The notes beneath the pieces were generated by a model. The model saw only the letters and a program-made list of their open reading frames with translations. It was not told the origin of the DNA and searched no databases. From contig JAIBCE010000006.1 of assembly GCA_019694315.1 (NCBI GenBank), positions 1-64,000 on the forward strand: DNA of 64,000 nt, in the 5' to 3' direction. Position numbers and translations under genes: made by a program. Source of the stretch: Sandaracinaceae bacterium (GTDB lineage Bacteria > Myxococcota_A > Polyangia > Polyangiales > Sandaracinaceae). Positions 3,595 through 15,976 of this stretch are shown piece after piece (the stretch's first letter is position 1; the number at the start of each line of letters is the position of its first letter).

Positions 3595-4247
3595 GGCACC
3601 TCGACGTCCTGTGAGCGGAAGCGCAGCGAGCGCTCGGCCGCGCCGATGCCGCGGTTCACGAAGAGGCTCACGAAGGAGCCGAAGAACGAGTCACTGTCGA
3701 CGGCGCCGCGCTGCGGGCGCGCGAGCCAGCGTCGGATGCGCTGCACCGTGTCGGGCGTGAGCGGGTTGAGCTCGACGGCGACGGCGAAGTACGCGCGCCG
3801 CCCGCGGATCGCTGCCCAGTCGCTCGCGCGCCCCACGGGGAGGCGCTCGGCGACGAGACAGTGCGAGACGACCTCGTCGATCGTGCCGAGCGAGATCGTG
3901 CGATCGCCCGACTCGCTCGCGAGCTGCACGCGGAAGCGCTCCTCCCAGAGGTCGTAGACGACGCGGCACGAGCGCGCGGCGACGGCGACCGGCTCGTCGC
4001 GTCCGGTGGTGTAGGCGTAGGCGCGGAATTGCAGCGTCTGCGGCAGTCCGCTCGTGAGCTTGCGCCGCGTCTCGGGATCGCTCGCGAAGTCCGCGACGCT
4101 CACGTCGAGGCGCGGCACGCCGTCGACGAAGCGCGCCCCGACGCGACGCTCCGCGAGCTGCGCGTGGGCGCTCGATCCCTGCGCGAGCCACGCGAGGATC
4201 ACCGCGCCGAGCGCGAGCGCGAGCGAGCGTAGGAGGCGCGAGCTCAT
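3591..4247 (-). CDS. DUF4390 family secreted protein
   Basis: 218 residues with a cleavable signal peptide (hydrophobic 6-24, cleavage near SSAHAQ). The mature part alternates beta strands, and has the segment ERFRVQLAS and a C-terminal region FFGSFVSLFVNRGIGAAER that fits DUF4390. The function is unknown; the gene is often found directly upstream of NtrY-type kinases, as here, with a four-base ATGA overlap at both ends of the gene. It may be a periplasmic partner of the kinase sensor region, which is inference from linkage. Confidence 0.75.
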   Translation of the reverse strand: MSSRLLRSLALALGAVILAWLAQGSSAHAQLAERRVGARFVDGVPRLDVSVADFASDPETRRKLTSGLPQTLQFRAYAYTTGRDEPVAVAARSCRVVYDLWEERFRVQLASESGDRTISLGTIDEVVSHCLVAERLPVGRASDWAAIRGRRAYFAVAVELNPLTPDTVQRIRRWLARPQRGAVDSDSFFGSFVSLFVNRGIGAAERSLRFRSQDVEVP

Positions 4248-6025
4248 CCCACCGACACGAAGCCGAGGAGGGTGGAGAAGCCGATCGAGAAGACGCCGAT
4301 CGAGGTGTCCATGCGCACGCCGACGTCGAACGTGAGATCGAGCGGGAGCAGATCGATGCCGGAGTAGCCGCGGATCGGGCGCTGGAAGTCGGCTACGTCG
4401 GCGAGCGTGTAGAGGCCCGCGTTCGCGTAGACCCAGAGCGAGCGGAAGTCGCCGTCGGTGCGGAAGAGCTGGATCTGGTACTCGAGGTCGAGGCGCGCCC
4501 CGAGCTGGCCGATGCGGTGCTCGGCGATGGCGTTGCGGAACGCGTTGAGCGGGCCGCGGCGGTCGAGGTTGAGCTCGAGCATGCGGCTCGGGATGAGGTC
4601 CGACAGATCGGCCGCGTAGAAGCGATAGAAGAAGGGCGTCTCGTCGAGCGCGGCGCCCGCGAAGAGCGAGACGCGCAGCGTGTGATCCCAGCCCGGGAGC
4701 GGCACCCAGTGGCGCACGAGGCCCTCGGCGCGGAAGAAGTCGTAGTCGGAGCCGAAGAGGCGGCTCGCGAGGTTCACGCGCAGGTAGAGCAGGGTGCCCG
4801 AGCGCGTGAGCGCGGCGTTGTCGCGCTCGTCGAAGACGAGGCTCAGATCGAACATCGACACCGCGCTGATGCCGTCCTGCACGAGGAAGTCGATCGGCAC
4901 GACGTCGAGGCCGCGCAGCTCGCTCGCCGCGTCGGGGCGCGAGAGCACCGAGACGAGCTCGAGCTGGTACGAGAGGCGGAGGACGATGTCGGGCGAGAGC
5001 GAGATGCCCGTGCCGAGCGAGCCGCCGCCGCGTAGGTAGTTCACGACGGCCGCGCGGGCGGCCTCGCAGGGCATGGGATCGCCGTCGGGACAGCGCAGCG
5101 GCGTCACGAGGACGTCGTCGTCGCCGTAGAACTCGCGGCCGTGCACGAAGAAGCCCATCGCGTTGATCGCGAAGGGCGAGCCGAAGGCGCCCGGATCCTC
5201 GAAGCGCAGGCGCGCGCCCTGCTGCGGCTCCGACAGCAGCAGCGTGAGCGCGAACGCGTCGCCGGTGCCGAGGAGGTTCGCGTCCGAGACGCTCAGGCCG
5301 CCGTACGGGACGATCGGTGCGTCGGCACGCGCGTAGGTGCCCGCCAGACCCTCCGACACGCCGAGCACCAGGTTGTCGACCTGGAACGTCGTGCGCTCGC
5401 GGACCTCGATGCGGAGCACGACACGCCCGCGCGCCGAGCCGCGCTCGAGCGAGAGGCGCACCTCCGAGAAGAAGCCCGTGCCGAGGAGCGTGTAGCGCGT
5501 CTGCTCGAGGCGCTCGTCGTCGACGTCGAGGGGCTCGCCCTCGCGCACGGCGACGTAGCGACGGACCACGTGCTCGGCCGTCTGTGTGTTGCCCACCACG
5601 CGGATCGACTCGAGCCGGTAGACGATCGACGAAGACTCCTCACCCGCGTCGCTCTCGCTGGTGTCGCCGACGCTCTGCCCCGCGTCGCTTTGGCCCGCGT
5701 CGGTCTGGCCCGCGTCGGTCTCGCTCGTGCCGCTCTCGCTCGTGTCGCTCTCGCGGGTGTCGCCGTCGACGTTCGCCTCGTCGCCCTCGTGTTCGTCGTC
5801 GCCCTCGTGTTCGTCGTCGCTCCCCTCGCCGCTGTCGTCGGGGCCGGCGTGTGCGTGTTCGTCGGGCTCGCCGTCGTCGGTGCTCGTGGCGGCGCCTCGG
5901 TCGGCCTCTTGGGCGTGCGCGGGGACCGCGAGGATCGCCAGCGAGAGGCCGAGCCAGAGCGCGAGGCCTCTCGCGGCTCGAGAGGAGCGTCTCGCAGGTC
6001 GGCCGGAGCGGCGCACGGCCGTCAT
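4244..6025 (-). CDS. Omp85/BamA-like outer-membrane protein with one POTRA domain
   Basis: 593 residues from the ATG at 6025. An Arg-rich n-region and hydrophobic stretch end in AVPAHAQ (signal peptide). A ~75-residue acidic spacer follows, made of Asp/Glu/His/Ser/Thr repeats. A POTRA domain begins at YRLESIRVVGNTQT and includes FFSEVRLSLERG. The remaining ~370 residues alternate short strands and loops as in a 16-strand barrel. BamA has five POTRA domains and TamA three, so with one POTRA this is a smaller Omp85 relative whose cargo is unknown. A TTG at 6064 overlapping the previous stop is an alternative start. Its place in an operon with a sensor kinase suggests an envelope-related role. 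Confidence 0.78.
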   Translation of the reverse strand: MTAVRRSGRPARRSSRAARGLALWLGLSLAILAVPAHAQEADRGAATSTDDGEPDEHAHAGPDDSGEGSDDEHEGDDEHEGDEANVDGDTRESDTSESGTSETDAGQTDAGQSDAGQSVGDTSESDAGEESSSIVYRLESIRVVGNTQTAEHVVRRYVAVREGEPLDVDDERLEQTRYTLLGTGFFSEVRLSLERGSARGRVVLRIEVRERTTFQVDNLVLGVSEGLAGTYARADAPIVPYGGLSVSDANLLGTGDAFALTLLLSEPQQGARLRFEDPGAFGSPFAINAMGFFVHGREFYGDDDVLVTPLRCPDGDPMPCEAARAAVVNYLRGGGSLGTGISLSPDIVLRLSYQLELVSVLSRPDAASELRGLDVVPIDFLVQDGISAVSMFDLSLVFDERDNAALTRSGTLLYLRVNLASRLFGSDYDFFRAEGLVRHWVPLPGWDHTLRVSLFAGAALDETPFFYRFYAADLSDLIPSRMLELNLDRRGPLNAFRNAIAEHRIGQLGARLDLEYQIQLFRTDGDFRSLWVYANAGLYTLADVADFQRPIRGYSGIDLLPLDLTFDVGVRMDTSIGVFSIGFSTLLGFVSVG

Positions 6026-6060
6026 CGTCGCACACGATCGCGGGTAGGGTGGCCTCCGCG

Positions 6061-7353
6061 TCAACGCACGAGGATGTACGCGACGATGCCGAGGCCCACG
6101 AGGAAGGCCACGAGCAGCGCGAGCGTGACGTTCGAGCCTTCGTCATCGCGCGCGGGCTGCGTCGGGACGTCACGCTGCGCGCGCGCGGGCTCGGAGGCGG
6201 AGGCATGCGCGGTCGCGATCGAGCGCGGCTCGCTGGCGGAGGACTTGCCGTCCAAGAGCGCCTTCGCCACGCGCGGGGGCTCGACGACGTCGGCCACCGG
6301 TGCCTTCTTGGGCTTCGCCTCGTCCGACGAAGGCTTGTCGGGGCTTCCGGAAGCCTTCTGGGCATCACGAGAAGGCTTGCTGGGGTCTCCGGAAGCCTTG
6401 TCGGCCTCGCGCGAAGCCTTGTCGTCGGCGTTGGAGGGCAGGGGGCCCCGCGCGGCGGCCGGGATGTCGGTCTCGACGGAAGGCTCCCCACCGATCCACA
6501 CGATCCGCACCGTCGTGTCCTTCTGACGGATCGCGCGGCCTGGCGGGCGCACGGAGGGGCGGGCCTTGGGGGGCGGCGCGCTCCGCACGCTCGCGCGCGC
6601 CTTCTCGCGCACCGACACGACGTCGGTGAGGGCCATCTCGACGACGCGGAGGAAGTTCTTGCCGGTGTCCTCGCGGCCAGGCCGACCGTGCGCGTCCATC
6701 TTGGCATAGCGGCTCGTGGCGCCGCCGTCGGGCAGGGCGCGCGCGAAGCGTACGGTGGGCTCGCGATCGGCGGGATCTTCGGGGGCCTCGGGCGGAGCGG
6801 CCTGCTCGTCGTCGGGCATGGGCGGAGGCAGGCGCGAGCGCACGTCTTCCTCCGTGCGCGACGCGATGCGGAAGCTGCCCTGATCCCAGGCGAAGACCTG
6901 ATCGAGGTCGGCTTCTTCGCGGCCGTCGAGGCGGATGCCGAGCATCTCGCCGGCCTCGTAGATCACCTCGACGACGCGGCCCTCGTTGCGCATCTCGAGC
7001 AGTCCGGTGAGGCCGGCCTGTTCGCAGTAGGTCATCAGGTCGGCGGGCACGTGTACCGCGAGCGAGCCCCTGCGCTCGTGATCGTTGCCTTGCGTGACGG
7101 GCAGCGCGGGGAGGATCGCGTGCACCGCGAAGTGCCCCGAGCGCGCCTGGAGCAGAGCCTCGACGGGATCGGCGCCATTGGGCAGCGGATCCTGATCCAT
7201 GGCGATCTGGCCGGCGACGAGCTCGACCTCGCCGGACTCGTCGCCCACGAGGAAGCGGATCTTGCCCGTGATCCTGCGCGACTCGATGTCGCGCAAGATC
7301 TCCAGCACACCCCCCGACGGGATGTCGCCAGAGAGCACGGGCTCGGTCGCCAT
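6061..7353 (-). CDS. DUF4388 protein with C-terminal membrane tail anchor
   Basis: 430 residues. The N-terminal ~150 form a DUF4388 domain (LSGDIPSGGVLEILRDIE, TGKIRFLVGDESGEVELVAG, VEALLQARSGHFAVH), a module common in delta-proteobacteria and often linked to signalling proteins. The middle is a long low-complexity linker rich in Lys/Ala/Pro/Ser with repeated DKxS units (~residues 310-345). The last 22 residues (ALLVAFLVGLGIVAYILVR) form a single hydrophobic tail with nothing behind it, so the protein is probably tail-anchored facing the cytoplasm. The ATG at 7353 has AGGA upstream and is preferred over the long 5' extension, which runs into the divergent lipoprotein gene. First gene of the 7353-1217 operon. 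Confidence 0.8.
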   Translation of the reverse strand: MATEPVLSGDIPSGGVLEILRDIESRRITGKIRFLVGDESGEVELVAGQIAMDQDPLPNGADPVEALLQARSGHFAVHAILPALPVTQGNDHERRGSLAVHVPADLMTYCEQAGLTGLLEMRNEGRVVEVIYEAGEMLGIRLDGREEADLDQVFAWDQGSFRIASRTEEDVRSRLPPPMPDDEQAAPPEAPEDPADREPTVRFARALPDGGATSRYAKMDAHGRPGREDTGKNFLRVVEMALTDVVSVREKARASVRSAPPPKARPSVRPPGRAIRQKDTTVRIVWIGGEPSVETDIPAAARGPLPSNADDKASREADKASGDPSKPSRDAQKASGSPDKPSSDEAKPKKAPVADVVEPPRVAKALLDGKSSASEPRSIATAHASASEPARAQRDVPTQPARDDEGSNVTLALLVAFLVGLGIVAYILVR

Positions 7354-7457
7354 CGCGGGATTCCTGCAAACGGCGATACGCGTGTCAAGCGCTCTGGGGC
7401 GATTCGTTCGGCGCGCAGGCCTGGCACGAGTGGCCGAGGACGTGCCACAAGGGCTCC

Positions 7458-7997
7458 ATGCGACGCGTGCTCTGCTCGGCTGTGGTGCTCGTGGGCTCGT
7501 GGATCGCAGGCTGCGGGGCGGGCGCGGCGAGCTCCCGCGAGACGACACCGGTCGCGACCGACCCGTGCCCTCGCCTGCGCAGCGAGCGCGACGATGCGGT
7601 GACCGCGCTCACGCGTTGTCGCGAGGCGAGCACCGTGTGGGCTCACCAGGCGGTCTTCGATCGGGCGCTGGCCGAGGTGCGGCACGTGGGCGAGCTCGGC
7701 GCGCAGGGCGCCGTGCCTCCGAGCGACGCGCAGCGCGCCGCGGACGCGATGTGGGAGCTGCTCGACGCGGTCTCGCCCGAGCTCACGAACCACCTCGCGC
7801 TCGATCGGGCGGAGAATGCGGCGGAGGCGATCCTCCGCGATCGCGAGGGCGATCCCGCGCGCGCGGCGAGGCTCGAGGCCGAGGGCGCCCTCGAGGAGAT
7901 CCACCAGGTGCTCGCGCCAGCGCCCGCCGAAGATCCGTGCGCGGGGGAACGAGACCGTGCGCGCGAGACCGCAGACGCGGCGGCGCAGTGCGGCTGA
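7458..7997 (+). CDS. Small predicted lipoprotein, function unknown
   Basis: 179 residues. It has a lipoprotein signal peptide with lipobox IAGC (Cys19) and a helical, Glu/Ala/Arg-rich mature region with six further cysteines, including a CPRLRSERDDA segment near the start and [21 protein letters not shown] at the end. I recognise no domain. It is divergent from the DUF4388 operon, with 104 bases between the starts, and stands alone before a convergent ferredoxin gene. Confidence 0.65.
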   Translation: MRRVLCSAVVLVGSWIAGCGAGAASSRETTPVATDPCPRLRSERDDAVTALTRCREASTVWAHQAVFDRALAEVRHVGELGAQGAVPPSDAQRAADAMWELLDAVSPELTNHLALDRAENAAEAILRDREGDPARAARLEAEGALEEIHQVLAPAPAEDPCAGERDRARETADAAAQCG

Positions 7998-8079: not shown

Positions 8080-8376
8080 TCACTCCGGCTCGACGACCTC
8101 GAGGACGATCTTGCCCTCGCCCTTGACCTGCACCTGACAGCAGAGGCGCACGTCCTTGCCGTCGCCGAAGACGTGCAGGACGTCCAGCTCGTCGTCGGCC
8201 GGCGTGGAGAGGAGCGCCATGCCCTCCTTCACGCGGACGCGGCACGTGCCGCAGCTCGCCGAGCGACACGAGAACGGGACCTCGGCCTCGGGGTGCTCGT
8301 CACACGTGTCGACGAGGGCCGTGCCCGTCTTGACCTGCGTCTCGAAGCCCGACGGAAGAAAACGAACGGTCGTCAT
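8080..8376 (-). CDS. Plant-type [2Fe-2S] ferredoxin
   Basis: 98 residues with the cluster-binding pattern CRSASCGTC followed ~30 residues later by CC (LCCQ), as in plant-type/adrenodoxin-like 2Fe-2S domains. It is a soluble electron carrier; no partner reductase or oxygenase is adjacent. I chose the ATG at 8376 because the segment before it is Arg/Ala-rich and unlike ferredoxin. It is convergent with the lipoprotein gene and divergent from the pseudokinase gene. Confidence 0.88.
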   Translation of the reverse strand: MTTVRFLPSGFETQVKTGTALVDTCDEHPEAEVPFSCRSASCGTCRVRVKEGMALLSTPADDELDVLHVFGDGKDVRLCCQVQVKGEGKIVLEVVEPE

Positions 8377-8490
8377 GCGGCCGCGGTTGTGCCCCGGCCT
8401 CGCGGCTCGCGCAACGGCCTTGCTCACGTCGGCCGCGCGGCGGCGCCGACAAACCCTGGTTTTCGGGGCGTTCTGGGACGCGTCGCGCTC

Positions 8491-8519
8491 TTGGCCTCGC
8501 CGCGCGCCGCATGTAGGAT
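8491..8519 (+). promoter_or_regulatory. Possible sigma-70-type promoter for the pseudokinase gene
   Basis: TTGGCC (8491-8496), a 17-base spacer, then TAGGAT (8514-8519). Predicted transcription would start near 8526, giving a ~36-base leader. It is a plausible but unproven match. Confidence 0.4.
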
Positions 8520-8530
8520 CCCCGCCCCCT

Positions 8531-8549
8531 CGGGCCGTGCCCGTTTTTT
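8531..8549 (+). terminator. Hairpin plus T-tract inside the leader of the pseudokinase gene
   Basis: CGGGC, loop CGT, GCCCG, then six T residues (8544-8549). This is a terminator-like element only 12 bases before the ATG at 8562, between the possible promoter and the GAGAGAT ribosome-binding region. It may attenuate the gene, or only block read-through from upstream. Confidence 0.5.
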
Positions 8550-8561
8550 CGTCGAGAGATC

Positions 8562-11500
8562 ATGAACGCTACCTCCGAACACCTGCGCAGCGAGCTCGAG
8601 CGCCTCTTCGAGCTCGACGAGCTGAAGGCGCTCACCTCGAACCTCCTCGGCCTGTCTCCGGACGAGGTCGGCGGCACGGGCGGCAAGGGCACGTTCGCCC
8701 GTGCGCTCGTCGAGCGCCTGAGCGAAGAGGGCGCCACCGCGGCCTTGCTCGACGCGATGGTCTTCTCGAAGAAGGGCGTGAAGGAGCTCGACGCGCCGGC
8801 CGAGGATCTCGCGACCGGCACCGTCGTCGATGGCTGGAAGATCCTCAAGAAGCTCGGTGAGGGTGGCGTGGGCGTCACGTACCTCGCGGAGAAGGCGGGC
8901 GAGCGCGCGGCCCTCAAGGTCGTCCGCTTCGCGCACGCGCGAGATCGAGGTGCTTCGCGTCGCTGGCTCGTGGCGCAGCGCGCGCTCGCGCAGCTCGACG
9001 ACAAGGGCGCGGCGCGTGTGCTCGCGAGCGGCGTGCTCGCCGATGGTCGTCCGTGGGCCGCGACGACGTACGTGGAGGGTCAGCTCCTCGGGGCGCGCAT
9101 CGCACGCACCGGCCCGATGCACTTCAACGAGGCGCGCCCGATCGTTCGCGGCGTGCTGAGCTCGCTCGAGGTGCTGCATGCGCGCGGTCTCGCGCACGGC
9201 AACGTGAAGATGGAGAACGTCTTCGTCGTGCGGCCGCAGTCGGACAAGGGTCCGACCGAGCCCACGGGTGTGCTCGTCGACGCCGCTGCCGATCGGCTCG
9301 TGTCGCGCACGGGCACGCCGCCGTCGGCAGGGCACGCGGGCGTGTTCCCGGTCGCGGGCTCGGCCAAGGCCATGGCGCCGGAGCACGTGCGGCTCGGCCG
9401 CGCGGTTCCGTCGGCCGACGTCTACGCGGTCGGGACGCTCCTCTTCGAGGTGCTCACGGGCAAGCAGCTCTTTGCGGGCGACACGGCCGCCGACGTGATG
9501 GCGCGTCAGCTCACGACCGAGCCGGAGGCGCCCTCGACGGTCGCCCCGCGCGGCTGGGTGAGCAAGGAGCTCGACGCGATCGTGCTCCGCGCGCTGGCGA
9601 AGAACCCGGCGGATCGATACGCGAGCGCGAGCGCGCTCCGCGAGGCGCTCGAGATGATCGGCCGGGCGTCGGTGCCGCCCGAGGCGCGCAAGAAGGAGGC
9701 GCTCGACAAGGGCGCGTTCGACAAGGCGAAGGCGGCGCTGCTCGCCAAGCCGGCCGACGAAGAGCTCGCTGCCGCGCTCGAGCGCGTCGTCTCTCCCGCC
9801 GAGGAGTGGAAGCTCGCGACGGATACGCTCGTCGAGGCCGCCGACAAGGTGGAGGACAAGGAGGGCAAGAAGGCCCTGCTCTTCCGCGCGACGCGCCTGC
9901 TCGAGAGCGACGCCAAGGATCACAAGGGCGCGGAGGAGATCTACAAGAAGCTCCTCGAGATCGACGCCGAGGACGAGATCGCGCGCGCGGGGCTCGAGGA
10001 GCTCAAGCGCCACTCGGGGGACGCCGAGGGCCTCGTGGAGCTCCTGCTCGAGAAGGTCGATCGCGAGAAGTCGCCGCACGATCGCGCGGCCGTGCTCCGC
10101 GAGATCGCCGAGACGTACGAGGTCCAGCTCAAGGACGAGGACAACGCCTACGTCGCCTACGTGCAGGCCCTCTCCGAGGATCCGCGTCACGAGTCGACGG
10201 TGTCGGCGATCGAGCGCCTCGCCAAGGGCAAGAACGAGCGCTGGAACGAGGCGATCTCGGCCCTCAACGACGCCGTGCAGGCCGCCGAGAGTCGCGCCGA
10301 CAAGGTCACGATGTACGTGCTCATGGGCCGCTGGTACGCCGAGGAGCTCTCGCGTCCGGACTTCGCCCTTCCTTGCTACTCGCAGGCGCTGAGCCTCGAT
10401 CCCGCGAGCGAGCCCGCGCTCGATGGCACGGTCGCGCTCTACCGCAAGGCGCAGAGCTACCCCGAGCTCGCCGCGATCCTCCTCAAGCGCGCCGAGGTGG
10501 CCAGCCCCACCAAGGCCCGCGACTACAAGGCCGAGGCGGCCGACATCGTGCACCGCCGTCTCAACGACGGAAAGCGCGCGACGGATCTGTACGAGCAGAT
10601 CCTCGCGGAGGACGCCGCGCATCCCAAGGCCACCGAGGCCCTCGAGATGCTCTACAGCGAGCGCAAGGAGTGGGACGGGCTCGTCAAGCTGCTCGAGAAG
10701 AAGGCGCAGGGTCAGCGCGGAGCCGAGCGCGCCGACACGCTCTGTGGTCTCGCGGAGGTCTACGAGGATCGCCTGAGCAAGCTCGACGAGGCGGCTGCCC
10801 AGTACGAGGCGGCGCTCGTGGAGTCGCCCAAGCTCGTGCCGGCGCTCAAGGGCCTCGAGCGCATCTATGCACAGAAGGGTCGCTACGACGCGCTCCTCAA
10901 GAACCTCGAGGCGCAGCTCGAGACGGTCGCCACGCCGCGCCAGCGCATCGGCATCTGGGAGCGCATCGGCGGCATCCAGGAAGAGGAATTCGTCGACCAC
11001 AAGGCGGCGGCGGCGGCCTACGAGCAGATCGTGGCGATCGAGCCCGGCCACGACGCTGCGAACGCCGCTCTCGCGCGCGTGTACCGTCAGCTCCAGCGCT
11101 TCGACGATCTCGCCGCGACGCTCGAGCGTCACGCGCTCGCGTCGAGCGACGAGCAGCGCAAGATCAACCTCCTCCTCCAGGCGGCGCGCGTGCTCACGGT
11201 CGACGTGGGCGCGCCCGAGCGCGCCGGCTCCATGGCGGAGCGCGTGCTGTCGGTGAAGCCGGATCACCCCGAGGCGCTCGAGCTGCTCGCGCGGCTCAAG
11301 GCGAAGTCGGGCGACAAGAACGCGGCCGTCGATGCGGTGCGCAAGCTCGCGGAGGCCGAGAGCGACAAGGCCAAGAAGGCCGACTTCTACGTGCGAGCGG
11401 GCCGCATCCTCGAGGAGGCCGGCGACAAGGACGGCGCGATCGCGCAGTACAAGCTCGCCCTCGACGCGAACAAGGACGACGCCAACGCGGCGGCCGCGCT

Positions 11501-13871
11501 GCGAGCCGTGTACGCGAGCCGCGGCGACGCGCACGGCGCGGCGGACCTCCTCCAGCGAGAGATCGAGGTCACCGAGGGCGCGAGCAAGAAGGCCCAGCTC
11601 TTCGCGGAGCTCGGCAAGCTGCGCCGCGATCGCCTCAAGGACGACGCGGGCGCCAAGGACGCGTTCAAGAAGGCGATCGAGCTCGACTCCACGTGCACGC
11701 CGGCCGCGCGCGGCCTGGGCGATCTCGCCTTCGACGCGGGCGACTTCGTCGAGGCGGCCAAGCTCTACGAGCCGCTGCTCGCGCGCACGAGCGAGATGAG
11801 CAGCGAGGACGCGCTCGCGACCTGCATCCGCTGTGGCGACGCGCTCCGCAAGGCGCAGCAGTTCGACAAGGCGCAGCGCGCGTACCTCAACGCCAAGAGC
11901 CTCGCGCCCACCGATCGCGAGGTGCTCGAGCGCGTGGCCGAGGTCACCTTCGACGCCGGCGCCGCCGACGAGGCGGCCGAGCTCTACCGCGATCTCCTCA
12001 AGCAGGGCGGCAAGGAGCTCACGGGCACCGACCGCGGTCGCATCGTGTGGCGCTTGGGCGATGCGCTCCGACGCAGCGAGCAGCTCGACGAGGCCAAGGG
12101 CTTCCTCGAGGAGGCCGCGCAGCTCCTGCCCGGCCAGGCCGAGCCGCTCGTCTCGCTCAAGGAGCTCTTCGCCAGCAAGAGCGACTGGGAAAAGGTCGTC
12201 TCCACGCTCAAGCGTCGCATCGACGTGGCGCCCGACAGCGAGCGCTTCGCGCTGCTCGTCGAGCAGGGCGACGTGCTGCTCGGCAAGCTCCACGACAAGT
12301 CTCGCGCGGGCAAGAGCTACGTGGCCGCGCTCGAGCTCAAGGGCGACGACCGCAACCTGCTCTCGAAGCTGATGGCCGTCTACTCGGAGACGAAGGACTG
12401 GGGAAAGCTCGTCGAGGTCATCCTGCGCATCGCGGAGCTCGTCACCGACAAGGCGCAGCTCGCGAAGTACTACAACACCGCGGCGGCCATCTCGCACGAG
12501 GAGCTCGGTCGCCTCGACGAGGCGGCGGACTACTACGAGCAGGCGCTCGATCTGAACGGGGGGCTGGCCAAGGCCTTCGATGGTCTCGTCTCCGCGCTCA
12601 CGCAGAAGCAGGACTGGGCGCGCCTCGAGAAGGCCTATCGCGATCAGCTGCGTCGCAACGAGAGCTCCGCGACCCCCAAGGACGCGGCGCACCTCTGGGA
12701 CTCGCTCGGTGAGCTCCTCAAGCATCGCCTCAACCGTCCGGCCGACGCCGTGGAGGCCTTCGAGAAGGCGCAGAAGCACGACCCGGACAACCGTCGTCGC
12801 GCCGAGCAGCTCGCGGAGATCTTCGCGAAGGAGCCGAAGAAGTTCTTCCAGCAGGCCGTGCGCGTCCACCAGCAGCTGCTCGTGGCCAACCCCTACCGCG
12901 TGGAGAGCTACCAGGCCCTGCGCAAGCTCTACACCGAGGCCAAGAAGCCCGACGAGAGCTGGTGCGTGTGCCAGGCGCTCACGATGCTCAAGAACGCCGA
13001 GCCCGACGAGGAGGGCTTCTTCAAGAAGCACCGCCGTCGTCAGCCCGCGGCGATCAAGGAAGTGCTCACCGACGAGCTCTGGCTCAAGCATGTGCAGCAC
13101 CCCGATCAGGATCCGCTGCTCACCGAGATCTTCTCGGCGGTGGCGCCGGCGGTCTTCGCGGTGCGCAGCCAGCCGCTCTCGAGCTTCAAGCTCGACGCGG
13201 GACAGAAGCGCGAGGCCGAGAAGGATCAAGCCGACATGGCGCGGACGCTCTGGTACGCGGCGCAGGCCACGCGCATCCCGCTGCCCGACATCTACTACCG
13301 CGACGACGATCCGGGCGCGCTCGGCTACGTCTTCAGCTCGCCGGCCGCGATCAGCCTCGGCAAGGCCGGGCGTGGCTCGGCGCCCTCGCAGGTGCTCGCG
13401 TTCCTCTGCGGCCGCCACCTCGCGTACTTCAAGGGCGGCATGTTCCTGCGCTACCTCGTGCCCACGGGCTCGGGACTTCGCGCGTGGCTGCTCGCCGCGA
13501 TCAAGACGCAGGTCGCGCAGTTCCCCATCCCCGGCGATCTCACGACGCAGGTGGAGGAGCACATGCGCGCCATCCAGCAGCACCTCTCGGGGCCGCAGAA
13601 GGAAGTGCTGCGTAGCCACGTGAACAAGCTGCTCGCTTCCGCGCCCGAGCTCGACCTCAAGCGCTGGACGGCGGCCGTGGACCTCACCGCGGACCGCGTG
13701 GGCTTCCTCCTCGCGAACGATCTCGAGGCGGCCACCGCGATCGTGAAGGCGAGCCCCGATGAGGCCTCCGCCGTACCGCAGAAGGATCGTCTCCGCGAGC
13801 TCCACCTCTACGGCGTGAGCGAGCCCTACCTCACGCTGCGCCACAAGCTCGGCATCGCGATCGGCGACTGA
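8562..13871 (+). CDS. Giant protein: Ser/Thr pseudokinase domain followed by a TPR solenoid
   Basis: 1769 residues. A Hanks-type kinase fold spans ~90-370: Gly loop LGEGGVGVTYLAEK (98-111), Lys119 in AALKVV, and MAPEHV plus SADVYAVGTLLFEVLTG in the C-lobe. Key residues are gone: the HRD-x-K-x-x-N loop reads HGNVKMEN (212-219), so the catalytic Asp is Asn214; DFG is DAA (240-242); and the C-helix Glu position is Ala/Gln. From ~390 to ~1500 there are many degenerate 34-residue TPR units (for example AAAQYEAALVESPKLVPALKG). The C-terminal ~250 residues (RIPLPDIYYRDDDPGALGYVF onward) are of unknown fold. It probably serves as a large scaffold; active paralogues of kinase-TPR proteins are common in myxobacteria. 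A 5.4-kb open reading frame lies antisense to it but is a composition artefact. Confidence 0.85.
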   Translation: MNATSEHLRSELERLFELDELKALTSNLLGLSPDEVGGTGGKGTFARALVERLSEEGATAALLDAMVFSKKGVKELDAPAEDLATGTVVDGWKILKKLGEGGVGVTYLAEKAGERAALKVVRFAHARDRGASRRWLVAQRALAQLDDKGAARVLASGVLADGRPWAATTYVEGQLLGARIARTGPMHFNEARPIVRGVLSSLEVLHARGLAHGNVKMENVFVVRPQSDKGPTEPTGVLVDAAADRLVSRTGTPPSAGHAGVFPVAGSAKAMAPEHVRLGRAVPSADVYAVGTLLFEVLTGKQLFAGDTAADVMARQLTTEPEAPSTVAPRGWVSKELDAIVLRALAKNPADRYASASALREALEMIGRASVPPEARKKEALDKGAFDKAKAALLAKPADEELAAALERVVSPAEEWKLATDTLVEAADKVEDKEGKKALLFRATRLLESDAKDHKGAEEIYKKLLEIDAEDEIARAGLEELKRHSGDAEGLVELLLEKVDREKSPHDRAAVLREIAETYEVQLKDEDNAYVAYVQALSEDPRHESTVSAIERLAKGKNERWNEAISALNDAVQAAESRADKVTMYVLMGRWYAEELSRPDFALPCYSQALSLDPASEPALDGTVALYRKAQSYPELAAILLKRAEVASPTKARDYKAEAADIVHRRLNDGKRATDLYEQILAEDAAHPKATEALEMLYSERKEWDGLVKLLEKKAQGQRGAERADTLCGLAEVYEDRLSKLDEAAAQYEAALVESPKLVPALKGLERIYAQKGRYDALLKNLEAQLETVATPRQRIGIWERIGGIQEEEFVDHKAAAAAYEQIVAIEPGHDAANAALARVYRQLQRFDDLAATLERHALASSDEQRKINLLLQAARVLTVDVGAPERAGSMAERVLSVKPDHPEALELLARLKAKSGDKNAAVDAVRKLAEAESDKAKKADFYVRAGRILEEAGDKDGAIAQYKLALDANKDDANAAAALRAVYASRGDAHGAADLLQREIEVTEGASKKAQLFAELGKLRRDRLKDDAGAKDAFKKAIELDSTCTPAARGLGDLAFDAGDFVEAAKLYEPLLARTSEMSSEDALATCIRCGDALRKAQQFDKAQRAYLNAKSLAPTDREVLERVAEVTFDAGAADEAAELYRDLLKQGGKELTGTDRGRIVWRLGDALRRSEQLDEAKGFLEEAAQLLPGQAEPLVSLKELFASKSDWEKVVSTLKRRIDVAPDSERFALLVEQGDVLLGKLHDKSRAGKSYVAALELKGDDRNLLSKLMAVYSETKDWGKLVEVILRIAELVTDKAQLAKYYNTAAAISHEELGRLDEAADYYEQALDLNGGLAKAFDGLVSALTQKQDWARLEKAYRDQLRRNESSATPKDAAHLWDSLGELLKHRLNRPADAVEAFEKAQKHDPDNRRRAEQLAEIFAKEPKKFFQQAVRVHQQLLVANPYRVESYQALRKLYTEAKKPDESWCVCQALTMLKNAEPDEEGFFKKHRRRQPAAIKEVLTDELWLKHVQHPDQDPLLTEIFSAVAPAVFAVRSQPLSSFKLDAGQKREAEKDQADMARTLWYAAQATRIPLPDIYYRDDDPGALGYVFSSPAAISLGKAGRGSAPSQVLAFLCGRHLAYFKGGMFLRYLVPTGSGLRAWLLAAIKTQVAQFPIPGDLTTQVEEHMRAIQQHLSGPQKEVLRSHVNKLLASAPELDLKRWTAAVDLTADRVGFLLANDLEAATAIVKASPDEASAVPQKDRLRELHLYGVSEPYLTLRHKLGIAIGD

Positions 13872-13970
13872 TCGCACCAGCACGCAGACTCGCGAACGGC
13901 GACTCGGAGACGGGTCGCCGTTCTGCGTTTCGGCGTTCGAGCACCGCGCACGCTCGCGAGCGCTCGCGCC

Positions 13971-14486
13971 TCACTCGCGTCGCGACTCCGGCGTCGAGGC
14001 CTCCTCGCGAGATCCGCTCCCGAGCCGCGCACGGACGACGGACTCGAGCGGTCGCGGGGAGGGCGGCACCTCGGCGATCGCGGCGGCCGTCGCGAGGTGC
14101 ACGACCGGCGGCAGCGGCACGCTCGCGCAGCGCGCGCGCAAGCGGTGCTCGAGCGCGAGCGCGAGCAGCTCTCTCAGGAAGGGCGGATGGTTCGCGGCAC
14201 GCGTGCGGAGCTCGGACGTCTCGTCGAGCACGTCGAGGAGGGAGCAGAGCGCGTCCTCGGCGACGCTCCGCCGCCCCAGTGCGCGCGTCGCGAGATCGGC
14301 TGCCGCACAGGCCTCGAAGACCAAGGAGCCGAGGTCGTCGCCGAGCCACGCGACGCAGGGAGCCCAGAGGAGACGTCCCTCCTCGACGAGCGCCTCTCGA
14401 AGCCGAGCGAGGGAGCGCTGACGCACGAGGGGATCTCCCGTCCACGAGCGCGCGGCGCGCAGCGCGAGCGGGTCGGTCGTCGTCAC
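13971..14486 (-). CDS. Unknown protein coupled to the MoxR-like ATPase
   Basis: 171 residues, all-helical in appearance, Leu/Ala/Arg-rich, no membrane segment and no recognised family. Its ATG overlaps the ATPase stop by four bases, so the two are translationally coupled. In other bacteria MoxR/RavA ATPases sit beside von Willebrand A or helical partner proteins; this protein has no MIDAS motif, so it is not a ViaA-type partner. It may be a dedicated partner of the ATPase, on linkage alone. Confidence 0.65.
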   Translation of the reverse strand: MTTTDPLALRAARSWTGDPLVRQRSLARLREALVEEGRLLWAPCVAWLGDDLGSLVFEACAAADLATRALGRRSVAEDALCSLLDVLDETSELRTRAANHPPFLRELLALALEHRLRARCASVPLPPVVHLATAAAIAEVPPSPRPLESVVRARLGSGSREEASTPESRRE

Positions 14487-15976
14487 TCGGCGAGCCTCGG
14501 CAGGCGATCGATGGCGTCGCGGACGCGGTCGAGCTCGGTGAGCGTCATGTGGAGCGACGAGAGCGCGGTGTCGAAATCCTTGCGGGTCAAGCCCAGCACG
14601 TCGGCCGCCTCGAGCGTCGCAGGGCGCTCGTCGAGGAGCCCACGCGCGAGCGCTCCGACCTCGCGCGACAGGGCACCGACGCTCGCCTTCCAGCCCTCGG
14701 TCACCTGCGCCGCGTATCGACGCGGCTGCGCGACGGGCGTACGCGGCGTCGACTCGAGGATCTGGTTCGTCGGGCTCGCGATGTAGGCCCTGAGACGCGT
14801 CATGCCGCTCGGCAGCCGCTCGAAGTGCAGGTGCCAGAGATCCTCGAAGGTCAGCGCGCGGATCCGCGGGCCGAGCCCGTGTGGCGGGTGATAGAGCGGG
14901 CGACCCTGCTCATCGGTCTTCTGGCGCAGGAGCGCGTGCGCGGCCGTCGTCGCGCCGTCTTCGTCGACGAACAGTGCCGCGCCGAGCGCATCGGTCGCGA
15001 GCTCCCTGGCCTGTGCGGCGTCGCGAATGGCCGTCGCGAGCACCTCGGTGCGCACGGCGAGATCCCCCGCTCCGTCGAGGATCGCGAGGCGCGTCGCGTC
15101 CACCATCGCGCGAACGATCTGCGGCGTGAGACCCGGATCGGCCGAGAGCGCGTAGGGCACGAGGAAGAGATCTCCCAGCGTCGCCTGGCCACGATCCTCG
15201 CTGGCCACGTGCACGCGGAGCGCACGACCGAGGCGCTGCCACCGTCCGTTCGAGAGCGCGAGGCCACGGTCGAGGAGCGTGGATCGGAGCACCGCGAGCA
15301 CGCGCGTGAGGAGCGGGCCGAGCACCACCCGCTCGGCAGCAGCATGGAGTGTCGCGAGCGCAGCTCGATCGAGCACGGGGGCCACGTCTCGCTCGCGAGC
15401 CGGGGACGTGAGCAGCGCGTCGAGCGATCGCGTGGGGGTCGTGGCCACCGTGAAGAGGAAGCGCTCCGCGAGCATGGAGCCCGTGTGCGTCGCAGCTCGC
15501 ATGGTGCCGATCGCGAGGACGAGCGGGGCTTCGTGCGTCGTCTCTCCGATCACGACACGTCGCTCGTCGAGAAGCGAGCGGACCGCGTCGAGCGTGGGAC
15601 CGCGAACCTCGAGGACCTGATCGAGGATCAGGATCTCCGCGTCGAGGGCATGGCCCCTGACGAGCCGCTCGAGCCGATTCGCCTCGAGCGCCGGGAGCGA
15701 GAGCGGTCCGAGCACGTCCTCCACGAGCGAGCTCCCGTCGAGCGTGCGCTCGAAGACGCGCGCGCCCTCGAGCTGAGCGGAGAGCCGACGCGCGAGCAGG
15801 GTCTTGCCCGTGCCAGCGGGTCCCACGAGCAGCACTGGCTCGCCCGCGAGGAGCGCGAGCACGAGCACCGTCGCCTCTCGCTCTCGATCCTCGAGCGAGC
15901 CGCACACACGCGCGCGGAGCAGCGCGACGAGCTCCCTCCACGGTCCCGAGCACGACATGCGGCGCCATTGCAGCAC
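14483..15976 (-). CDS. MoxR/RavA-like AAA ATPase lacking hydrolysis residues
   Basis: 497 residues. Walker A is intact (GPAGTGKT, 52-59) and is followed by VFERTLDGSSLVEDVLGP, typical of the MoxR/RavA clade. The Walker B motif reads ILILDQV (115-121), with Gln120 in place of the catalytic Glu, and the sensor-1 region reads AIGTMRAATHTG, with Met159 where MoxR proteins have Asn. The arginine-containing LAERFLF segment remains. ATP binding is plausible but hydrolysis doubtful. The ~200-residue C-terminal part is helical and unassigned. The start is a GTG; an ATG 18 bases on is an alternative. It lies in a minus-strand run with a lipid hydroxylase upstream (16-base gap). Confidence 0.8.
   Translation of the reverse strand: MLQWRRMSCSGPWRELVALLRARVCGSLEDREREATVLVLALLAGEPVLLVGPAGTGKTLLARRLSAQLEGARVFERTLDGSSLVEDVLGPLSLPALEANRLERLVRGHALDAEILILDQVLEVRGPTLDAVRSLLDERRVVIGETTHEAPLVLAIGTMRAATHTGSMLAERFLFTVATTPTRSLDALLTSPARERDVAPVLDRAALATLHAAAERVVLGPLLTRVLAVLRSTLLDRGLALSNGRWQRLGRALRVHVASEDRGQATLGDLFLVPYALSADPGLTPQIVRAMVDATRLAILDGAGDLAVRTEVLATAIRDAAQARELATDALGAALFVDEDGATTAAHALLRQKTDEQGRPLYHPPHGLGPRIRALTFEDLWHLHFERLPSGMTRLRAYIASPTNQILESTPRTPVAQPRRYAAQVTEGWKASVGALSREVGALARGLLDERPATLEAADVLGLTRKDFDTALSSLHMTLTELDRVRDAIDRLPRLAE

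Follow-up and report, generated by a model that had tools for sequence, protein, structure and literature searches.

A predicted pseudokinase carrying an EAD7-like domain on a GltI/AgmK-like TPR chassis in a Sandaracinaceae bacterium

PknG of actinobacteria is an active kinase in which a rubredoxin-like N-terminal part is followed by the kinase domain and a short TPR part, and it has neither an EAD nor an M48-like domain. In BepA, the TPR part follows the peptidase core. GltI/AgmK, the giant TPR protein of the myxobacterial Glt gliding machinery, is the product of MXAN_4863 in Myxococcus xanthus. It has a length of 4,132 aa and is encoded in a gene cluster with the order gltD-E-F-G-H-I-J (PMC3169522). 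SgmX, a TPR effector in the same bacterial group, binds MglA-GTP (PMC7519303). In the bSTK classification, the bacterial pseudokinase groups ActPs1-3, GLW, DLHK, CP1, and DYD have degraded motifs, and the C-helix Glu is missing from the DYD kinases as well (PMC12599244). EADs have been proposed to be coupling adaptors that act via like-with-like contacts, with EAD7 among the effector recruiters; EAD7 was defined from biological-conflict systems, whose kinase domains are inactive in the majority of cases (PMC7159879).

The window analyzed here is a stretch of 64,000 nucleotides from a Sandaracinaceae bacterium whose draft genome comprises 8.67 Mb and is 94% complete. On its forward strand, a single ORF running from ATG to stop codon (8562-13871) encodes a protein of 1,769 aa, which consists of an EAD7-like domain, a pseudokinase domain, a TPR solenoid, and a probable M48-fold pseudopeptidase domain. 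The closest named relatives of this protein are encoded in myxobacterial metagenome assemblies, several of which are labelled Sandaracinus or Sandaracinaceae, and the full length of the gene is conserved in the majority of 38 relatives. No transmembrane stretch was found in the protein (maximum 19-residue hydropathy 1.26). Every domain is under purifying selection, with dN/dS values of about 0.23 for the whole gene and 0.32 for the kinase domain in comparison with a sister species, and of about 0.13 and 0.17, respectively, in a second species pair. The conservation and the former pair of values exclude a chance origin of the ORF with the kinase fold. An antisense ORF of 1,819 aa (8424-13883) was regarded as a shadow ORF of the GC-rich coding sequence.

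The first-pass annotation had described the protein as a pseudokinase fused to a TPR solenoid, and the kinase-type fold is borne out by all comparisons made. Residues 86-370 (8817-9671, forward strand) have a PknA/PknB fold: Pfam Pkinase matches residues 93-360 with E=1.3e-18, a phmmer search of PDB sequences leads to StkP/PknB at 1e-25, and the predicted model of the domain (pLDDT 91) aligns with PknA with Z=32.5 over 265 residues. The catalytic residues are also as had been read from the letters. The β3 ATP-site lysine Lys119 (8916-8918) is retained, Ala138 (8973-8975) is found instead of the C-helix Glu, Asn214 (9201-9203) replaces the catalytic Asp, so that HRD has become HGN, and Asp240-Ala241-Ala242 (9279-9287) occupies the position of DFG. 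Thus, the catalytic Asp, the C-helix Glu, the HRD Arg, and the FG of DFG are gone from this copy; Lys119, the metal-binding Asp240, and the catalytic-loop residue Asn219 are still present. The 29 closest relatives of this domain among the kinases of the same genome, which has at least 150 kinase-like matches, served as controls; Lys, Glu, HRD, and DFG are intact in each of them. Hanks-type pseudokinases combine a kinase fold with loss among Lys, catalytic Asp, and metal Asp; in the window protein the fold is present and the loss lies in Asn214. Together, these sequence features support the prediction that the domain is a pseudokinase.

The same positions were compared in 70 orthologues. Neither the C-helix Glu nor the HRD Arg occurs in any of them, and none has all of the kinase residues. 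The ATP-site Lys is present in 61 orthologues and replaced in nine, a glycine-loop Gly is lost in about 30%, and the catalytic Asp position is occupied by D in 47, N in 13, A in nine, and T in one. The metal Asp is found in 69 of 70, a complete DFG in 17, and some orthologue clades retain both HGD and DFG. In a phylogeny based solely on columns of the C-terminal domain, and hence on none of the kinase, the catalytic Asp position undergoes six state changes, at least four of which are forced by well-supported branches. These counts, the repeated changes of the Asp, and the dN/dS values point to a maintained pseudokinase family and not to the decay of a single gene; the frequencies of Lys, catalytic Asp, and metal Asp make ATP binding or residual activity possible in some members. 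Residues R179, H187, N189, E190, L246, G331, and W332 are near-invariant and family-specific in comparison with the 29 paralogues and may constitute a docking surface; R245 and L246 are family-specific residues beside the DFG site. Two C-helix arginines at positions 134 and 140 (8961-8963 and 8979-8981) are invariant in 70/70 orthologues despite the loss of the Glu. Some genomes of the order encode second EAD-pseudokinase-TPR copies (L279, L280, L282, L283) with more degraded motifs, HGN or HGA at the catalytic loop and LDSGA, VVGAG, or LDPGA at the DFG site.

Both ends of the protein were absent from the first-pass annotation. Residues 1-70 (8562-8771, forward strand) form an EAD7-like, i.e. 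death-like and all-helical, adaptor domain, for which five helices are predicted in the model. Pfam EAD7 is matched by 6/6 isolated N-termini with a best E-value of 1.8e-7; the window member has an E-value of 0.0011 and 19.1 bits, which is below the Pfam gathering score of 32. When scanned together with the kinase domain, 26/70 orthologues match EAD7 at E<=0.01. EADs usually occur in pairs. In the draft genome (94% complete), this is the only EAD7-like stretch and no second EAD7 was found, so that any EAD available for like-with-like pairing would be either this protein's own or a divergent one.

The kinase domain is followed by a TPR solenoid of approximately residues 372-1500 (9675-13061, forward strand), which is indicated by matches to Pfam TPR families and by homology to the TPR part of a giant paralogue described below. 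About 1100 residues of TPR had been annotated behind the kinase; the repeats do reach approximately residue 1500, but residues 1442-1769 (12885-13868) are a separate domain of about 330 residues, in which TPR-like helices precede a core of probable M48 fold devoid of catalytic residues. The mean column identity of this domain is 61-62%, and searches against Pfam, NCBIfam, and PDB sequences returned nothing useful.

Its likely fold emerges from structural and profile comparisons. The predicted model (pLDDT 94.7) has the M48 peptidase ZMPSTE24 at Foldseek rank 1 (probability 0.89, E=0.17), and the ten best rows of a structural alignment (VIA) are all M48/M56 peptidases, including 3c37, Ste24, BepA, ZMPSTE24, and BlaR1, with Z values of at most 7.2. 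A profile from a diverse alignment of the domain, compared with M48 proteins of related genomes, scores 32.0 (P=0.0013) with an hhalign probability of only 18%; the controls reach at most 15.4 with 60 column shuffles, 20.0 with the reversed profile, and at most 20.8 with 60 unrelated families. The clear score is obtained from the diverse alignment only, the narrow one giving a weak hhalign result (P=0.02-0.03). In the profile alignment the zinc helix is in register, GRHLAYF lying against AHExxHL, and the preceding strands are aligned as well. In this register, the window protein has RHLAY (13413-13427) at the position of the zinc motif HExxH; by alignment, DLTAD (13680-13694) is located at the position of ExxAD, the motif of the third zinc ligand. 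HExxH is absent from all of the diverse members of the domain that were aligned from Myxococcota genomes, and no member bridging to active peptidases by an intact HExxH was found among them. The domain might instead be an unrelated helical cap whose likeness to M48 reflects a common arrangement; the modest hhalign and Foldseek values and Z values below 8, which are common by the structural aligner's own caution, would fit this. It is nevertheless considered unlikely, as both structural searches lead to M48 or M48/M56 peptidases and in the independent profile comparison the HExxH helix and the strands before it are in register, with a score far above those of the shuffles and of the 60 families. 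The domain is therefore regarded as a probable, not proven, M48-fold pseudopeptidase. Outside the kinase fold, no recognizable working enzyme was found in the 1,769-aa protein.

The rear part of the protein is shared with a giant TPR protein of 3,384 aa encoded in the same genome (G000:C89:20845-31000; L291; also L300 and L302). Residues 502-1767 of the window protein, approximately 1,270 residues, are 33% identical to it (E=2.7e-191), and the profile of the C-terminal domain also matches it (E=2.4e-81). This giant corresponds to GltI/AgmK by position and size. The genes adjoining it match GltG and GltE, and in a relative (G002) the neighbors of the giant match GltG, CglF, and GltE with NCBIfam E-values of 7e-131, 9.4e-20, and 9e-17, respectively, these matches being below the NCBIfam equivalog cut-offs, thresholds that are intended for close homologues. 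This neighbor order agrees with that of M. xanthus gltD-J (PMC3169522). The gene of the window protein is located outside the gltD-J cluster, in which the giant paralogue holds the place of GltI. A further protein of the same genome with TPR and the C-terminal domain is truncated by the contig end (G000:C385:2356-4383; L290). SIR2-like N-termini on the same TPR and C-terminal domain were observed in three relatives (L288:804-5687, L289:366-5273, and L292:258-7172), with Pfam SIR2_2 E-values of 6e-12 and 4e-9 and a weaker match in L292, which also carries a kinase.

Of the 235 Myxococcota genomes sampled, 123 encode the C-terminal domain, in most cases as the last domain of giant TPR proteins. 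In a midpoint-rooted tree of the family with TPR and C-terminal domain, the members with EAD and kinase form one clade of 18 sequences plus one shorter kinase-free row (SH-aLRT 99). The fact that TPR and C-terminal domain are common to the phylum-wide, kinase-free GltI, together with the single clade of EAD-kinase members, suggests that the chassis is older and that the kinase was added to it, a history that depends on the midpoint rooting. The proposal that the protein evolved from a kinase-TPR protein is supported only in part; the chassis itself is that of the kinase-free GltI, and the EAD-kinase members are an inner clade. We infer, as the most economical explanation, that EAD and kinase were grafted onto a GltI-like chassis and that catalysis was lost afterwards, and not that an enzyme of the kinase-TPR type degenerated to a scaffold. 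A GltI-like TPR protein would have acquired the EAD and the kinase domain in a single event within the class; the C-helix Glu and the HRD Arg would have been missing from the kinase domain at an early stage already, and several losses of the catalytic Asp would have followed. No active kinase-TPR paralogues were found on the same chassis, the further EAD-kinase paralogues being more degraded.

A divergent gene for a 2Fe-2S ferredoxin-like protein (8080-8427, reverse strand; Fer2 E=3.4e-12) is located beside the pseudokinase gene in several families and is the only nearby neighbor conserved beyond the genus; apart from it, no conserved operon or conflict-system partner was found. Downstream, a small unannotated gene (13971-14486, reverse strand) and a gene for a MoxR-type AAA ATPase (14483-15976, reverse strand) are adjacent only within the same genus. 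In Polyangiaceae-like genomes, according to sequences read by eye, the pseudokinase gene is flanked by an FtsB-like gene on one side and by a type II secretion operon in convergent orientation on the other. On the other side of the ferredoxin-like gene in the window, genes for a DUF4388-like protein (6061-7548, reverse strand) and an Omp85/POTRA outer-membrane protein (4244-6064, reverse strand) adjoin each other in one operon-like run.

Three other roles have to be weighed for the kinase fold. In some family members at least, it could still be an active kinase of an atypical kind that dispenses with the C-helix Glu and the HRD Arg, and the window copy would then be a recent dead branch. Some other supposed pseudokinases have rewired active sites, Lys, catalytic Asp, and metal Asp occur together in many orthologues, and the HGD and DFG of some clades as well as the metal Asp and catalytic-loop Asn of the window copy would be in line with activity. 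Such a kinase is nonetheless improbable in view of the absence of the Glu and the Arg from all orthologues and of the repeated loss of the catalytic Asp, from the window copy as well, with retention of the gene; moreover, an activation-segment Thr (column 259) that is present in 29/29 paralogues is found in only 20% of the pseudokinase family. SelO and SidJ are kinase folds that carry out AMPylation or glutamylation, and other nucleotide-dependent chemistry of this kind might make use of the retained ATP-site lysine, metal Asp, and catalytic-loop Asn and of the family-specific R245 and L246. Of the roles considered, this one is the least likely, given the replacement of Lys119 and the loss of the glycine-loop Gly in part of the orthologues; no likeness to the active site of SelO or SidJ was noticed in passing.

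A role in a biological-conflict system, anti-invader or suicide, in which the EAD recruits the protein to a sensor and the pseudokinase serves as a non-enzymatic switch, would be in keeping with the origin of the EAD7 model and with the inactive kinase domains of those systems. It would also accommodate the sister proteins in which SIR2-like N-termini, which are frequent in defense, are joined to the same TPR and C-terminal domain. The gene, in contrast, is a single, vertically inherited one across the order without a conserved operon, and no cognate EAD7 is encoded in the genome. The PADLOC matches are to generic kinase models and were not counted as evidence of defense, and the MoxR neighbor was dropped as a sign of a conflict system, since its adjacency is limited to the genus and the model for its type hits E. 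coli as well as all relatives. A conflict function consequently appears improbable, to about the same degree as an active kinase.

The reading favored here, which we hold to be probable, is that the window protein is a GltI/AgmK paralogue acting as a cytosolic, non-catalytic scaffold and a double pseudoenzyme. That the kinase fold belongs to a scaffold, as proposed by the first-pass annotation, is consistent with the invariable lack of Glu and HRD Arg, the conservation of family-specific non-catalytic residues, and the lack of a working enzyme elsewhere in the sequence. Scaffold rather than enzyme is also probable from the domain make-up, the back half being common to GltI; the absence of a membrane stretch and the two degenerate enzyme folds flanking the solenoid make a cytosolic assembly platform the most likely role. 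In such a scaffold, the EAD would mediate like-with-like assembly or recruitment of a partner, as predicted for EADs, and the pseudokinase would be a docking or nucleotide-sensing module instead of a phosphotransferase. Docking may proceed through the conserved C-lobe surface of R179, H187, N189, E190, G331, and W332 plus R245-L246 after the DFG site, and the solenoid with its M48-like cap would hold a client complex, as presumably in GltI. A connection of the protein with gliding or polarity is suggested by homology only. More tentatively, and with doubt, a new class of myxobacterial double-pseudoenzyme scaffolds can be imagined: a gliding-type or polarity complex would be controlled by a death-domain-like assembly signal and by a nucleotide- or phospho-sensing switch, which the adaptor and the pseudokinase would bring to the GltI chassis, GltI itself ending in a dead M48 domain.

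The individual parts of the protein are of known kinds; their combination and the relation to GltI appear undescribed, no description having been found in the literature searched, which left most subscription papers outside its scope. The same literature contained no description of an M48-like domain at the C-terminus of GltI; a likely fold is now given for this unannotated part. Most bacterial pseudokinases are known as sequences that have no assigned role, and the family connects one of them with a defined structural relative, the giant TPR protein belonging to a motility machine that has been studied in depth. It also shows the catalytic Asp being lost repeatedly within one order while the gene is retained. 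If the scaffold reading is true, the protein would be a bacterial counterpart of those pseudokinase scaffolds of eukaryotes whose assembly is mediated by death-like domains.

Compared with known systems, the kinase domain resembles PknA/PknB-type Ser/Thr kinases in fold and overall domain length and differs by the lack of C-helix Glu, HRD, and DFG and of a transmembrane or PASTA part. PknG, set beside it by description only, has the same succession of kinase domain and TPR, but the window protein lacks the catalytic residues and has an EAD7-like N-terminus, and thus departs from the PknG pattern. With the M48 peptidases BepA, Ste24/ZMPSTE24, and 3c37 it probably has the predicted gluzincin core fold in common, and the zinc helix aligns in register; it differs from them in the two zinc motifs, and from BepA in having the TPR before the core. 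Likened by text alone, the bSTK pseudokinase groups have degraded catalytic motifs as does the window protein, and the text of that review makes no mention of myxobacteria or TPR (PMC12599244). The EAD7 adaptors of conflict systems (PMC7159879) are similar in the profile match of the first 70 residues, whereas the window protein has no partner EAD7 in its genome and no VMAP/vWA operon. GltI/AgmK, compared via the giant of the same genome, is similar in its long TPR solenoid and in the same C-terminal M48-like domain; it differs in its size of about 3,300-4,200 aa, in being without EAD or kinase, and in its location in the glt cluster, whereas the window gene stands alone.
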